From positions 2,609,001 to 2,673,000 of the forward strand of contig NZ_CP059297.1 of the NCBI RefSeq assembly GCF_017795885.1: a DNA stretch of 64,000 bases, written 5' to 3'. Every line of letters begins with the position of its first letter. The stretch's first letter is position 1. The stretch comes from Brevundimonas sp. AJA228-03 (GTDB lineage: Bacteria; Pseudomonadota; Alphaproteobacteria; Caulobacterales; Caulobacteraceae). The notes beneath the pieces are model-generated. The model did no database searches and was not told where the DNA came from. It was given only the letters and a program-made list of their open reading frames with translations. This document shows positions 49,345 through 55,152 of the stretch, one piece after another. The translations under genes and the position numbers were made by a program.

Positions 49345-49413
49345 CTCGCGAACAAGGTTACCCGGAACTGATAGACCGGGCTTATTTGTCAAGATTTGCC
49401 TGGAGGGGCTCGA

Positions 49414-50127
<714 letters not shown>

Positions 50128-50382: not shown

Positions 50383-50544
50383 CAACCACAACCCATGGAG
50401 GCTTAAATGCGAAGCCTGACCCTTGACGAATGTGGCATCGTCACCGGTGGGGCGATTGGGGATCCTATGTATTCGATTTACCTTGGTGACTCTGATCAGC
50501 AAGGCTCTCAAACGGGTGGCCAACAAGACAAGACGACGCAAGGT
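50383..50544 (+). repeat. Duplicated leader/peptide block, copy 1
   Basis: 162 bp nearly identical to 53136-53297: it covers the AACCACAACCCATGGAGGC leader with its Shine-Dalgarno, the GG-leader, and the segment through DQQGSQTGGQQDKTTQG. The last 40 bases are identical in the two copies. Beyond this the two peptide genes diverge. Confidence 0.85.
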
Positions 50545-50793
50545 GTGGGGAATAACGGCGGGCGATCACCCAGTGAGACAGCTCGCGCTCCGGAGGTGAG
50601 ATGGGGTGACATCCCGATCAGCCGTCCGGCTGGGCCCTTTGAGTCAGGTCCTGGCGGAAACGAAGGCGGCCCGGACGACTACCCTCCGATCACAGGGACT
50701 GGGGTGATCGTCGATACGGGTAACGGGTCCGTCGGTGTCGGCGTGACCGAGGACGGCAACGGCGGCGGGATTCGCATTACCCGGCGCTTCTGA
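50407..50793 (+). CDS. Double-glycine-leader peptide, paralogue 1
   Basis: 128 residues. MRSLTLDECGIVTGG looks like a bacteriocin-type double-glycine leader (compare MRELTxxEhxxVSGG), with cleavage expected after GG at residue 15. The mature part is hydrophilic: AIGDPMYSIYLGDSDQQG..., then a Gly/Pro-rich tail, without Cys. TGGAGGC precedes the ATG. The S9-type hydrolase starts five bases after its stop, so they are co-translated. A peptide signal, bacteriocin or surface peptide is possible; the exporter remnant at 54238 supports a C39-processed peptide. Confidence 0.7.
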   Translation: MRSLTLDECGIVTGGAIGDPMYSIYLGDSDQQGSQTGGQQDKTTQGVGNNGGRSPSETARAPEVRWGDIPISRPAGPFESGPGGNEGGPDDYPPITGTGVIVDTGNGSVGVGVTEDGNGGGIRITRRF

Positions 50794-50798
50794 AATCA

Positions 50799-52772
50799 AT
50801 GATCGCGACGAGTTTTCGAATGCGTCTCAAGACCTGGCCTGGACCCGGCGTGATCTGGGTGGCGGCGGCGTTTCAGGCCAGTTCAGCCTGGAGCGCCGCC
50901 CTGCCTCTGGAGAGCCCGGACGAGCCGATCCGGTCGGTCGAATACTCTGTCAGCGGACCCGCCGTGGTCCGGCTGACCAACGGCGACACGGTCTCGGTTG
51001 GCGTTCCCGGAACGGACTCGACCCCGTCCGTCAGTCTGGAATGGGAAACGCGATACACGCTCGGTTCCGAAGTTCGCCAGGAGGGTTGGCGGATCCGTCA
51101 GGTGCTGTGCGACACCCAGGTGACGAACGCCTGCATCATCCGGCGGCGCCGGGGCGTTGTGGAACAGTGGACGACGCTTGACCTGTCGTCGGGTCAGTCC
51201 GGCCCGGATTGGCGCGAGCTTGGTGACGGCACCGTGCTGGACTACGATGCCCGCTCTTCGAGTGTGCTGCGTTCGTCGGTCTCCGAGGCGACCGTGACCG
51301 GACTGGTCGTCCAGTCCCTGAGCGATCCGGGCAGCGCGCGCGAGCTTTGGCGCGCCGAGCCCGCGAACAGCGTGGCCGATGCCCGCTATCTTCCCACGCA
51401 AACGTCGGTTCGGCCGATCCTTTTGATGACGGGCGGTGTTCCAGCGCACTGGACGGTGATCGACGGCGACAGGCAATCTCCGGTTCGACCGTCTCCCGGG
51501 GTGCTGATCGCCAGTTTCGAAAGCACCCTGTACATTGCCGCTGCCTCTCCGGACGGCCGGGAGAGCTGGCAGGGCTTCACCGAAACACCCCGCGCCGGGG
51601 CCGAATGGACGCCTGATCGGCTCCTGTATCACGGTGACGGCTTGACCTCGCCCACGGTGACCGTTCCCACCGATCCTGGTCGGCTGGTATCGCCGGAGAA
51701 GGGTGCCGCCTTCCTGCCGAACGGAGCCATGATCGCCGTCACGCGAACGGACGGGGTTTTCGCCCTGTCGGAGATATGCCGCCCTTCGCCGGACGCGGCG
51801 CCGCGCGCCGAACCCCTGACCCAGTTCATCGACTGGAGCGCGGAGGCGGCCAGCCTGACGATCCACGGCGGGGCGCCGGCGGCGGGCACGCTGTTGGTCG
51901 CGCGGTCCGACGTGGCCGGTAATCTGTCGATCAAGGCTTTGACGATCGCGTCGTCGCCGGGTCCGGCGCGCGCGATCGGTCTATGCGGCCAGACACGCGT
52001 GCTGTCCGCCGATCTCGATCTTCCCGCGCCTGCTCAGCCGCTTTCGGACGTCGTGCGGCTTGGCCATTCCACGGTCGCGTCCGACGGAGTCGTGCTGACC
52101 TACGACGTGATCGCCCGTGCTGGCCAGGTCGGGCGCATTCTGATCCGGCCTTACGGTGCCTTTGGATTGGAACCTCAACGGTTCATCGCGCGACCGCTTG
52201 AACGACAGTGGGTGGCGCAAGGCAACACGCTGATCGTTCCCAGACTTCGGGGCGACGCAGGCACCCGGGAGTGGGTGGAGGCCGGGCGCGGGAACCACAA
52301 GCGCCGCGTGACCGAGGATCTGATCGCGGTGTCCGAGGATGTTCTGCGGCGCCATCCCGGCATTCTCCGCCTCGACCTGGTGGGAATCAGCGCCGGTGCT
52401 TTCACATCGGCGAGAGCGGCGTTCGCACGGCCGGACCTGTTCGATCGGGTCGTTCTGATCTCTGGCCTGCTGGACCTGTCCCTGTCCGAAGCGGCGATCG
52501 AGGGCAGTTTCGCCCTCGACGAGTACGGATCCGTTCAGGGCGGCTTTCCCGAATGGCTGGGCGGAACCCAGGCTCCCGCCGGGGTGGCACCCCGATTCAT
52601 CGTCCTGCACGGAATGGCGGACGAAATCGTGCCGGTCGAGGGTTCGGCCAATTTCGTCGCCTATGCGAGAAGCCTTGGATCCGACGTGGAGGGCCAGTCC
52701 TATGAAGGGATCGGTCATGACCTGGCCGGCGATTCCCAAATCCTGAGCGACATAGAGGGACTTGAGCCATGA
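50799..52772 (+). CDS. S9-type alpha/beta hydrolase, exported
   Basis: 657 residues with a signal peptide (about 1-32; VIWVAAAFQASSAWSAA). A poorly conserved N-terminal region (40-420) may be a degenerate beta-propeller. The C-terminal hydrolase has the nucleophile in DLVGISAGAFTS, Asp in LHGMADEIVPVEGS and His in YEGIGHDLAG, an intact prolyl-oligopeptidase-like triad. It is coupled to the GG-leader peptide upstream and overlaps the lipoprotein downstream (ATGA). Likely acts outside the cytoplasm, possibly on the peptide; substrate unknown. Confidence 0.8.
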   Translation: MIATSFRMRLKTWPGPGVIWVAAAFQASSAWSAALPLESPDEPIRSVEYSVSGPAVVRLTNGDTVSVGVPGTDSTPSVSLEWETRYTLGSEVRQEGWRIRQVLCDTQVTNACIIRRRRGVVEQWTTLDLSSGQSGPDWRELGDGTVLDYDARSSSVLRSSVSEATVTGLVVQSLSDPGSARELWRAEPANSVADARYLPTQTSVRPILLMTGGVPAHWTVIDGDRQSPVRPSPGVLIASFESTLYIAAASPDGRESWQGFTETPRAGAEWTPDRLLYHGDGLTSPTVTVPTDPGRLVSPEKGAAFLPNGAMIAVTRTDGVFALSEICRPSPDAAPRAEPLTQFIDWSAEAASLTIHGGAPAAGTLLVARSDVAGNLSIKALTIASSPGPARAIGLCGQTRVLSADLDLPAPAQPLSDVVRLGHSTVASDGVVLTYDVIARAGQVGRILIRPYGAFGLEPQRFIARPLERQWVAQGNTLIVPRLRGDAGTREWVEAGRGNHKRRVTEDLIAVSEDVLRRHPGILRLDLVGISAGAFTSARAAFARPDLFDRVVLISGLLDLSLSEAAIEGSFALDEYGSVQGGFPEWLGGTQAPAGVAPRFIVLHGMADEIVPVEGSANFVAYARSLGSDVEGQSYEGIGHDLAGDSQILSDIEGLEP

Positions 52773-52984
52773 GCCCGGCGGAACCAATGCGACGCGCTGC
52801 CAGGCTGGCGATCGGTCTCGGACTCACGGCGACCCTGGCGGGATGCGCCGGCGTCAGGGTGGACTGGGCCAGTTTCGGTGCCGGGGCGCTGGACGCCGCG
52901 TGCCGGAAGTCCCCCCATTGTGACCTGCCTTGCTCGCGTGATGAAGGACGGCAGGACTGCAAGAGCAATCGGCGCACTGATTGA
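52769..52984 (+). CDS. Small lipoprotein of the GG-peptide operon
   Basis: 71 residues; signal peptide LAIGLGLTATLAGCAGVRV with lipobox LAGC. The mature part has six further Cys/His-type residues (AACRKSPHCDLPCSRDEGRQ DC), perhaps disulfide-bonded. ATG 52769 overlaps the hydrolase stop; an internal ATG at 52787 is an alternative. No known family. Confidence 0.65.
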   Translation: MSPAEPMRRAARLAIGLGLTATLAGCAGVRVDWASFGAGALDAACRKSPHCDLPCSRDEGRQDCKSNRRTD

Positions 52985-53135
52985 CCCCTCGGACAGCACC
53001 AGGACCGCACCCTTGAGCGCTGGCACCAGAAAGGGCGACCGACGGCCCGGGCGACCGTTGCCACAAGTTTTTCGTGTCCCTCTATACAAGTTTAGGTGGC
53101 TGCCAAACCTGGTTTCTGTTAACCATCATAAAGGT

Positions 53136-53297
53136 CAACCACAACCCATGGAGGCGTAAATGCGAAGCCTGACCTTTGAAGACTGTGGTATGGTCGCCGG
53201 TGGGGCGATTGGGGATCCTATGTATTCGATTCAACCTGGTGACGCTGATCAGCAAGGCTCTCAAACGGGTGGCCAACAAGACAAGACGACGCAAGGT
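53136..53297 (+). repeat. Duplicated leader/peptide block, copy 2
   Basis: See 50383-50544. The shared DNA starts inside the 5' leader and ends 138 bp into the coding sequence. It indicates a segmental duplication followed by divergence or replacement of the 3' part. Confidence 0.85.
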
Positions 53298-53363
53298 TCG
53301 GGGTCTGGCGGCAGGAGAGCGCCTGTTCAGTCGCAACAACAGAGTAGAGAAAAGTTCTTCTAG
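53160..53363 (+). CDS. Double-glycine-leader peptide, paralogue 2
   Basis: 67 residues, MRSLTFEDCGMVAGG leader followed by AIGDPMYSIQPGDADQQGSQ TGGQQDKTTQG and a different, short tail ending SREKFF. It is a shorter paralogue of 50407-50793. Its end falls at a sharp drop in GC content, so the original 3' end may have been cut off by the AT-rich insertion. TGGAGGC precedes the ATG. Same type of leader and same cleavage site expected. Confidence 0.65.
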   Translation: MRSLTFEDCGMVAGGAIGDPMYSIQPGDADQQGSQTGGQQDKTTQGSGSGGRRAPVQSQQQSREKFF

Positions 53364-53364
53364 A

Positions 53365-54132
53365 TCATGGAGATATGTAGTTTCTTTGAAACTGTGCGCG
53401 TGCAAGAGGAACAATTTTGTTGTCTACAGACATAAGAAAGATATCATCGCCGACCATAAATCCACTCCCTGGCGAAATTACGGAACTCATTCGGGAGCGC
53501 CAGCAGTTCTCGTCATCTGCACAAATTGATGCCCTTGGAGAAAAATTCAGATACAGTTGAAGTTGATCTGAGGTCGGAAACCACATGGCTATGTCATAGG
53601 ATACAACGACGGACGTACAGTTATACTCACCACTGTCTCGGGCTGAAATTATAAGAAGACGTCTTGCAACGTCTTTCCAGAAATCCACATTCCATCCTAA
53701 CTCCTCGAAACGTGTTCTCTGAGACTGGGCGCGTTCGCTTCCACAGACGGGGGTGTGCCATTGGTAGTATTCAGCAAGCCAAACGGCGATCTGGTCGTTG
53801 CCATGAAATCCAATGAGTGGTCTACCGACGAAATTCAATTGAGCCTTCGTGGGCAAAATAAACTCTGCACATGACGACAGACAAAGTTCCCCAATAGAGA
53901 CTTTTGCAGGATAACTACCAACTAATAATGCAGCTTCTTGGCCTATAGCAGGGTCACCTCCGTAAGAAGAAATCACAATATCATTACCAGCGTTGGCATT
54001 TCGTCTAATTGCGTCCACAAAAGTCGAGTCAAGTTCGCCCGTTATTGTTTTAACTTGATCTGGCTGTTGAACGCAGGCCGGCGTATAAATAATCGCCAAG
54101 CAAGCGAAAATAAAAAATAATGTTTGTCGCAT
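53365..54132 (-). CDS. ClpP-fold-like (COG3904-type) lipoprotein, AT-rich
   Basis: 255 residues. A signal peptide (LFFIFACLAIIYTPAC) with lipobox. The middle resembles periplasmic ClpP/crotonase-fold proteins: IVISSYGGDPAIGQEAALLV, then IGELCLSSCAEFILPTKA with a likely Ser (SSCAE), and GRPLIGFHGND with a His. The GC content (about 45%) is far below the flanking genes, and its codon usage differs, so it was probably acquired. It is convergent with the second GG-peptide. Confidence 0.72.
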   Translation of the reverse strand: MRQTLFFIFACLAIIYTPACVQQPDQVKTITGELDSTFVDAIRRNANAGNDIVISSYGGDPAIGQEAALLVGSYPAKVSIGELCLSSCAEFILPTKAQLNFVGRPLIGFHGNDQIAVWLAEYYQWHTPVCGSERAQSQRTRFEELGWNVDFWKDVARRLLIISARDSGEYNCTSVVVSYDIAMWFPTSDQLQLYLNFSPRASICADDENCWRSRMSSVISPGSGFMVGDDIFLMSVDNKIVPLARAQFQRNYISP

Positions 54133-54237
54133 CAACCTGTCTCCGAAAGGCATTTCCGAAAACACATTACCTAATTGATACAATGCTGACGTGGGTAAAT
54201 TTGTGTGTCAAGCTGCAGCATGTACTAGAAGGCAAGG

Positions 54238-54507
54238 ATGCACAGCAGACTAATCCTCCAGTCCGAATGCGGCCTCGCCTGGATCGCCGATCCGGCGCGG
54301 GGCGAGCGCAAGCTGACGCTGGGGGAGGTGTCGCGCCACTTCACCGGCGTCGCGCTGGAACTGACGCCTGCGCCTCATTTCGAGAAGAAGACGGCTTCGG
54401 AACGGGTGCGGCTGGGCGATCTTTGGAGCCGGCTGTCGGGGCTGAAGCGGTTCCTGATCCAGATGTTCCTTTTGACTCTGCTGATGCAGGGGATCGGATT
54501 GATCCCC
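54238..54507 (+). pseudogene. Remnant of a peptidase-C39 bacteriocin ABC exporter
   Basis: About 90 codons. LILQSECGLAW resembles the catalytic-Cys motif of C39 peptidases (QxEAAECGLAC), but then jumps directly to ADPARGERKLTLGEVSRHFT GVALELTPAP, the end of the C39 domain, and to LSGLKRFLIQMFLLTLLMQ, the first transmembrane helix. The middle of the peptidase, the rest of the membrane domain and the ATPase are missing. The open frame continues to 54813 through unrelated DNA (the SOUL gene in reverse). In an intact locus it would process and export GG-leader peptides. Confidence 0.75.
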
Positions 54508-55152
54508 CTACTCCCGCTCGACCCTTACCGCGACCTCGTTGCGGCGCATCGGCGGCAGGGTCCAGGGTGGGTCGTAGAACCAGACCACCGGCTCGTCGCG
54601 CGCGACCCAGCCGCTGCCGCTCAGCCCGGCCATCAGCCCGGCCTTGTGCGTCTCCACGGCCCGTACCGAGCCGACGCCGCTGAACCGCACCACCGCATAG
54701 GTTTCGGCCGGAACGACGACCAGTTCGACCGTCGGATCGTCCGGCACGGGCAGCTGGTCCATCGTATAGGCGGCCGGCATGAAGAACTGGACCGTCCAGC
54801 GGTCCGGGCCTGACGGGGTCTGGGCCACCGGCGCGGTCATGGCGATCGTCTGCGACCCCGCGGATCGCCCGCCGGACTGCGCGACCGGGGCCGTCATCGC
54901 GATGGAGGCGCGCCGGGCGTTGCCGCCGAAGATATAGCCCGCCAGGCGTCGAAAGCCCTGGTTGCGGGCTGCGTCGCTGGTGCCCGTCACGACGGTCTGC
55001 GCGGCGATCCGCTCGCCATAAAGGCGGATCTCCAGATCCCCTGCCGGCGCCAGGGTCTGATAGGCAGGCTCCTCGGTGCCGGAGCGAACCCCGACCGTGG
55101 AACAGGCGGTGGTCACCAGGGCTGCGCCGATCGCCATCAGGGTCTTCCTCAT
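54508..55152 (-). CDS. SOUL/heme-binding family lipoprotein
   Basis: 214 residues. MRKTLMAIGAALVTTACS is a lipoprotein signal. The SOUL domain follows: YGERIAAQTVVTGT, AFRRLAGYIFGGN-like RRLAGYIFGGNARRASIAMT APVAQ, WTVQFFMPAAYTMDQLPVP. Members bind heme or are associated with light and stress responses. ATG 55152 is chosen for the signal peptide; longer readings lose it. The repeated MTAPVAQ motif appears twice. Confidence 0.9.
   Translation of the reverse strand: MRKTLMAIGAALVTTACSTVGVRSGTEEPAYQTLAPAGDLEIRLYGERIAAQTVVTGTSDAARNQGFRRLAGYIFGGNARRASIAMTAPVAQSGGRSAGSQTIAMTAPVAQTPSGPDRWTVQFFMPAAYTMDQLPVPDDPTVELVVVPAETYAVVRFSGVGSVRAVETHKAGLMAGLSGSGWVARDEPVVWFYDPPWTLPPMRRNEVAVRVERE

Follow-up and report, generated by a model that had tools for sequence, protein, structure and literature searches.

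The chromosome of Brevundimonas sp. AJA228-03, a complete genome of 3.04 Mb, contains a small locus in which a gene for a peptide with a double-glycine (GG) leader, P1, lies directly 5' of a gene for an exported-looking serine hydrolase. The locus, which lies within the 64-kb stretch of DNA analysed here (the window), further comprises a gene for a putative Cys-rich lipoprotein and a second GG peptide gene, P2; all four open reading frames (ORFs) are found where a first-pass annotation had placed them (Table 1). P1 and the hydrolase gene are separated by 5 bp and the hydrolase and lipoprotein genes overlap by ATGA, an operon-like packing that agrees with the grouping of the three genes in that annotation. 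P2 starts 175 bp 3' of the lipoprotein gene, and the remnant of an ATP-binding cassette (ABC) exporter of the C39 type, which had previously gone unnoticed, is found 874 bp downstream of P2. Here, we describe this locus and its counterparts in other genomes, and we consider whether the hydrolase may confer immunity to the peptide.

Leader peptides, hydrolase and exporter remnant

P1 and P2 possess C39-type GG (G[GAS]) leaders. A pattern for such leaders, composed after the two leaders had been seen, matched three of the 839 ATG codons in the window that are followed by at least 40 open codons (those of P1 and P2, and a third within an 825-aa ORF). As 20 triplet shuffles gave no match, its occurrence in the window is beyond chance. 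The two genes share a repeated block, previously described as near-identical over 162 bp, that extends over 168 bp with 155 identities. Residues 1-52 of P1 occur in only two copies in the complete genome, P1 and P2, and over 46 codons the two differ by nine replacement changes and one silent change, too few for an argument.

A protein search returned a sole relative, P0011, a metagenomic protein of 149 aa that is 71% identical to residues 1-60 of P1. The first-pass annotation had made its proposal depend on homologues with GG cleavage, and P0011, in which the GG site is kept, is the only such homologue found. Its leader and Gln/Gly-rich stretch are the same as in P1 and are followed by a Gly/Ala-rich glycine-zipper tail of the Cdz type. 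The leader and linker (~55 residues) are common to P1, P2 and P0011, whereas P1 and P0011 have different tails; as judged from these three sequences alone, the leader and linker form a constant module and the tail is variable. The AIGDPMYSI sequence, formerly regarded as the core of the mature active peptide, belongs to the constant region, which in P0011 goes on to the zipper tail. A strict 9-residue pattern for the glycine zipper, which in Cdz-like proteins contains neither Pro nor charged residues, matched P1 once, P2 once and P0011 five times. The earlier description of the peptides as unlike common bacteriocins applies to the tail of P1 itself and not to the family. The lengths of P1, P2 and P0011 (128, 67 and 149 aa) are within the 60-151 residues of Cdz-like peptides. 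When 200 related genomes were queried with P1, matches at E ≤1 were obtained in 100 of the 200, the best outside its own genome at E 8.4e-4. The only non-self match inspected (L005, E 1.2e-3) is antisense to a longer ORF and was rejected.

P2 is colinear with P0011 up to SQQQ, after which six residues and a stop codon follow, at the point where the G+C content falls to 44-49% in a region whose flanks are mostly above 60%. This comparison indicates that P2 is truncated and has lost its tail. The view of P1 and P2 as two working paralogues, which took no account of this truncation, is therefore not supported: the frame of P2 ends just past the constant region, having run into AT-rich DNA.

The hydrolase matches Peptidase_S9 (PF00326; E 1.2e-14; 54.7 bits against a Pfam cut-off of 22.6), and S531, D608 and H640, whose roles as a catalytic triad are assigned from position, are invariant in 11 of 11 aligned hydrolases. 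Its predicted structure (predicted local distance difference test, pLDDT, 83.6) matched prolyl oligopeptidases along the model length with Foldseek and VIA-align, and the model thus has a beta-propeller and alpha/beta-hydrolase (prolyl-oligopeptidase) fold. Identity as a lasso-peptide isopeptidase was rejected, as no match to NF033523 was obtained at E ≤1, and the isopeptidase of a B. diminuta locus (L080) used as positive control scored 607.7 bits (cut-off 400); none of the window proteins submitted to Pfam matched PF02517 (Abi/CPBP). Homologues of the hydrolase include the metagenomic sequences P0002-P0009. A pattern search of genome contigs gave 26 stretches and no relative, and the hydrolase profile A3 found none but the enzyme itself at E ≤1e-45 in 385 genomes of the class. 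A distant S9 match was present in 36 of 200 related genomes; among the matches listed, none is closer than ~30% across the catalytic part, and the hydrolase gene is accordingly no housekeeping gene conserved in the genus.

The exporter remnant is 88% identical over 76 residues to the exporter of genome G100, and 80% identical to those of G075 and G031. By-eye alignment to the L080 exporter places a deletion of ~82 residues in its C39 domain, between ECGLA and WIADPARG, and the absent segment includes HWSLDHFVVL, which should hold the catalytic His. The remaining frame ends in the first membrane helix and overlaps a gene that we take to be of the SOUL type. The first-pass annotation had suggested looking for an intact C39 exporter elsewhere in the genome. 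No PF03412 (C39) match over the cut-off was obtained in the complete genome with a search that matched 8 of 14 controls; two matches below it correspond to the remnant (E 0.0012) and to another sequence (E 0.13). Similarly, the exporter profile A2 found nothing in this genome at E ≤1e-45, versus matches in 73 of 398 genomes of the order. Intact C39 exporters adjoin the related loci in other genomes. With its exporter internally deleted and no C39 domain of the genome above the cut-off, this strain is unlikely to export P1 through a C39 exporter, and the locus is probably dead.

Table 1. Positions of the genes and repeated blocks of the locus in the window
Feature	Positions	Strand	Description
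P1	50407..50793	+	128 aa; 15-residue double-glycine leader, constant linker to ~residue 55, Gly-rich hydrophilic tail ending RITRRF
S9/prolyl-oligopeptidase-fold serine hydrolase, exported-looking	50799..52772	+	657 aa; PF00326, triad, model
Putative Cys-rich lipoprotein	52769..52984	+	71 aa; start overlaps hydrolase stop
P2	53160..53363	+	67 aa; P1-type leader and linker, truncated
First block copy	50383..50550	+	24 bp 5' of P1 including GGAGG, then leader and linker to codon 48
Second block copy	53136..53303	+	paired with 50383-50550
ClpP-like putative lipoprotein gene, AT-rich	53365..54183	-	similarity and model
CvaB-type C39 ABC exporter remnant	54238..54519	+	sequence comparison
Left flank, CtrA-type response regulator	49396..50127	+	Pfam Response_reg and Trans_reg_C

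Peptide-hydrolase pairs in other genomes

The neighbourhoods of C39 exporters from related genomes and 80 named loci were examined (genomes have G numbers and loci L numbers), and a loose leader pattern gave 74 GG ORFs near exporters, the window included and some of them matched by chance. The next gene encodes a hydrolase or membrane protease for 22 of the 74, and the peptide-plus-hydrolase pairing first suggested for the window thus recurs in other genomes. The Pfam scan covered 47 partner genes, of which the last 20 added only the rhomboid, and five of the 74 ORFs had no next gene by the rule used. An S9 or alpha/beta hydrolase follows the GG peptide in six cases: the window, G010, G134 (twice), L168 (a Sphingomonas metagenome-assembled genome) and G415, all over a Pfam cut-off except G415, which is below it. 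The G010 hydrolase, of 609 aa, is followed by genes for an HlyD protein and an exporter. Other next genes over Pfam cut-offs encode a BAAT-type hydrolase (one), an aspartyl protease with a PDZ domain (two; G271 and G116), a rhomboid (one) and a CPBP/Rce1-like protease (four; L152, L161, L197 and L198). The remaining eight are ClpP-like, one of them taken from L119 as L080 ends there; none is over a Pfam cut-off, and the label derives from their similarity to one another, a C-x-S-x-C motif, weak matches to CLP_protease and a low-confidence model. The partners therefore comprise five unrelated folds (S9/BAAT alpha/beta, ClpP-like, aspartyl-PDZ, CPBP and rhomboid), with lengths of 246-687 aa. Outside this count, L174 (Burkholderiales) has a GG peptide, recognised by eye, followed by two ClpP-like genes. 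ClpP-like genes are not specific to such loci: 57 matches occur in 48 of 200 genomes of the order, with a GG-leader ORF within flanks of ~1.5 kb in 6 of 30 loci.

In both G134 and G138, exporters, complete or partial, alternate with cassettes of peptide and partner genes, and G271 has five consecutive GG ORFs. The window resembles such an array after decay, as far as can be inferred from its layout. At one end of the G134 array (L122, 16939-18485), transposase-like ORFs, identified by eye, lie beside a 71-aa exporter fragment.

The mean hydropathy of the tail is below 0 in 15 of 16 hydrolase-paired peptides, and P1 is among the hydrophilic ones. Compared with the tails of 14 peptides paired with putative membrane proteins, these tails are less hydrophobic and also longer (Mann-Whitney, p 0.003 for mean hydropathy, 0.048 for the best 19-residue stretch and 0.002 for length), in a comparison whose groups were defined post hoc, in which "membrane" was assigned by a simple window and 4 of the 14 partners turned out to be CPBP proteases, and which left out L083, whose aspartyl partner was not yet recognised.

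Several other peptides in these neighbourhoods were recorded. Each of two GG peptides in L119 (10900-13506; B. diminuta) precedes a ClpP-like ORF; the two have PAADLAGLY as their last nine residues and differ in their middles. A first GG peptide ending in YLNR, perhaps a companion peptide, is encoded ahead of the peptide and hydrolase genes in two genomes, one of which has a near-duplicate of it (L254, 4043-4366 and 9029-9361; L255, 8891-9307). Two peptides paired with S9 enzymes have similar C-terminal ends, GGGIRITRRF and GGGITFRF, a likeness too loose to claim. In same-genus genomes G055 and G084, 58-aa GG peptides with SSYAQ repeats are followed by radical SAM-type genes that adjoin a C39 exporter (L078, 5398-6975, with PF04055; L081, 5405-6978), possibly a modified-peptide family. 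An apparent lasso-peptide cluster, with the Atxe2-type isopeptidase that served as control above and with FecR-like and PqqD-like neighbours recognised by eye, adjoins the GG-peptide/C39 exporter locus of B. diminuta ATCC 11568 (L080, 12558-17552; also L139).

Immunity by hydrolysis as a candidate function

We propose that the window holds a decayed secreted-peptide locus in which the hydrolase encoded directly 3' of P1 may protect the producer by cutting P1 in the periplasm, a prediction from sequence to which we give somewhat less than even odds (about 0.45). In this mechanism a C39 exporter would cleave after the GG and secrete the peptide, the tail would be the antibacterial part, and every tail would travel with its own neutralising hydrolase, as a toxin does with its immunity gene; cutting of P1 in the periplasm would spare the producer. 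In this strain P1 would no longer be exported for want of a C39 exporter. A broader and more tentative proposal, which we consider rather doubtful, is that Proteobacteria, above all Caulobacterales, possess a polymorphic weapon made of secreted peptides with exchangeable tails. Each tail would be countered by a dedicated hydrolase, either exported or in the membrane, drawn from at least five unrelated folds; immunity would then be toxin destruction, and the specificity of the protease would act as a code for self-recognition.

The immunity reading is suggested by the replacement of one another by partners of five folds that share little but predicted hydrolytic activity. In L125, which has an exporter of the same subfamily, the slot holds a small membrane protein, the usual immunity type of class II microcins (PMC9746304; here and below, statements on published work refer to the available portions of the cited papers). 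Immunity to bacteriocins is one of several roles reported for CPBP (CAAX-type) proteases (PMC9298176). Also in favour of this reading are the zipper tail that follows the shared leader and linker in P0011, the recurrence of hydrolase genes directly after GG peptides, the invariant triad, and the pairs of L120, L121 and L122, which lack a third gene as described below.

The main rival is that the hydrolase is a maturation enzyme that trims or activates the peptide after leader removal, with a small third protein, a membrane protein or lipoprotein, providing immunity. Behind the ClpP-like genes of L080 and L142 lies a gene for a small membrane protein (106 and 95 aa, respectively) that could be an immunity protein, so that maturation stays a reasonable rival. 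In L142, an intact locus of the marine Hellea balneolensis DSM 19091, the HlyD and exporter genes come next. The 71-aa putative lipoprotein follows the window hydrolase, and CAAX proteases have been reported in bacteriocin processing as well (PMC9298176). Against this, no further ORF of at least 60 aa separates the pair from the next exporter or HlyD gene in L120, L121 and L122, except for one of 61 aa that overlaps the end of a hydrolase gene, and five folds would have had to be recruited repeatedly for trimming. We regard maturation as rather unlikely, and less probable than immunity. That an S9-type gene merely happens to follow a relic leader peptide is a good deal less likely again: S9 and alpha/beta hydrolases are common, as the distant matches in related genomes illustrate, and the window exporter is dead, yet the close spacing and ATGA coupling, the recurrence of the gene order in G010, G134 (twice) and L168, the preserved catalytic residues and the lack of a close S9 relative among the matches listed all speak for a connection. 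The hydrophilic tails would also suit signals or surface-adhesion peptides, with hydrolases that clear or tune the signal; the glycine-zipper tail of P0011 and the CPBP partners point instead to bacteriocins and make this the least probable of the alternatives.

Several observations weigh against immunity by hydrolysis. Non-hydrolase genes follow the GG leader in 52 of the 74 ORFs, and the tail of P1 does not resemble known toxins and lacks a homologue, a search with residues 56-128 having given six candidates, none at E ≤10. Zipper matches occur in 3 of 17 hydrolase-paired peptides and in 11 of the 58 remaining GG ORFs, and are thus no rarer in the former group. The ClpP-like hidden Markov model (six sequences) and the first S9 model (four) were built from these loci themselves, and the independent profile hits are only L142, L254, L256 and L174 (ClpP-like) and L168 (S9). 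The small membrane proteins of L080 and L142 count here too, as do the roles in processing, signalling and regulation that have been reported for CPBP proteases (PMC9298176). Finally, the nearest relatives of the window ClpP-like gene (L126-L128) have no adjoining GG peptide; for this reason, and because it lies on the opposite strand, that gene is not claimed as the partner of P2.

Known systems and flanking genes

Lasso-peptide isopeptidases of the AtxE2 type (NF033523) are exported S9-type enzymes dedicated to a bacterial peptide, as is proposed for the window enzyme, and one is encoded near a B. diminuta GG locus; the window enzyme differs in lacking an NF033523 match and in following a GG-leader peptide. 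Abi/CPBP (CAAX-type) proteases were reportedly described as bacteriocin immunity proteins by Kjos in 2010 (cited in PMC9298176). They share with the window the arrangement of a protease gene adjoining a bacteriocin gene, in the window a putative one, but are intramembrane metalloproteases, whereas the window enzyme is a soluble-looking S9-type serine hydrolase.

The Cdz system of Caulobacter crescentus (PMC5380434) resembles the loci described here in its leaders ending in G[GAS], its small strain-variable proteins, its type I secretion by an ABC exporter with an HlyD-type partner and the glycine zippers found in the tail of P0011. CdzI, however, is a small three-helix membrane protein, whereas the gene after P1 encodes a 657-aa hydrolase, and P1 lacks an extended hydrophobic zipper. 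Small membrane proteins are sometimes found near Cdz systems, and CaaX proteases are mentioned in such islands (PMC5380434). Class II microcins (PMC9746304) likewise have a precursor with a GG leader, a C39 exporter, a membrane-fusion protein and a gene in the immunity position. Their confirmed immunity proteins are of 51-216 aa and tend to be located in the inner membrane; next to P1 there is the large hydrolase and then the 71-aa putative lipoprotein rather than a small membrane protein, and an intact C39 exporter was found neither at the locus nor in the genome. Since the microcin pipeline retained only immunity candidates of 30-250 aa (PMC9746304), it would drop most of the hydrolase partners found here. 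Polymorphic toxins (PMC3482391) have a constant N-terminal delivery region, an exchangeable C-terminal part and a neighbouring cognate gene, an architecture also seen in P1 and P0011, though in these sequences only. Among the present loci, those of G134 and G138 have pieces of exporter genes lying between the cassettes; differences from polymorphic toxins are the very small proteins, the C39 exporter and the hydrolase partners.

Cdz-like systems and class II microcins are thus already known (PMC5380434, PMC9746304). A literature search found no account, among its top-ranked matches and with most subscription journals outside its coverage, of GG peptides in Proteobacteria that are regularly paired with soluble exported hydrolases. 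If the proposal is correct, it would extend immunity by a soluble enzyme to unmodified bacteriocins in Gram-negative bacteria, suggest a reason why such loci escape searches built around small immunity proteins, and provide natural peptide-hydrolase pairs for studying how unrelated protease folds come to act on a single short substrate. The two orphan leader peptides of this strain would be explained as leftovers of an array that lost its exporter.

The regulator gene on the left flank, which we take to be ctrA, has a match in 40 of 41 genomes searched. A blastn search of 30 loci for an empty site at ctrA revealed neither a SOUL-type gene behind ctrA in the others nor any clean empty site. An IS1595-family transposase gene (PF12762; 48169-49128) lies between a DnaA-like gene and ctrA, with no copy at the equivalent place in 29 other ctrA loci (blastn). 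The 71-aa putative lipoprotein has a lipobox-like LAGC and four further Cys residues; it matches no Pfam family over the cut-off (LPAM_1, E 0.26, being below it), and tblastn of 94 loci gave a match in its own genome only. The ClpP-like gene likewise yielded no Pfam family. It has weak similarity (E 8e-6) to the ClpP-like partner in L069/L120, and the best Foldseek match of its low-confidence model (pLDDT 68.8) is ClpP (E 5.7e-4). The G+C content of the gene is 44-49%, and it is perhaps an unrelated arrival.

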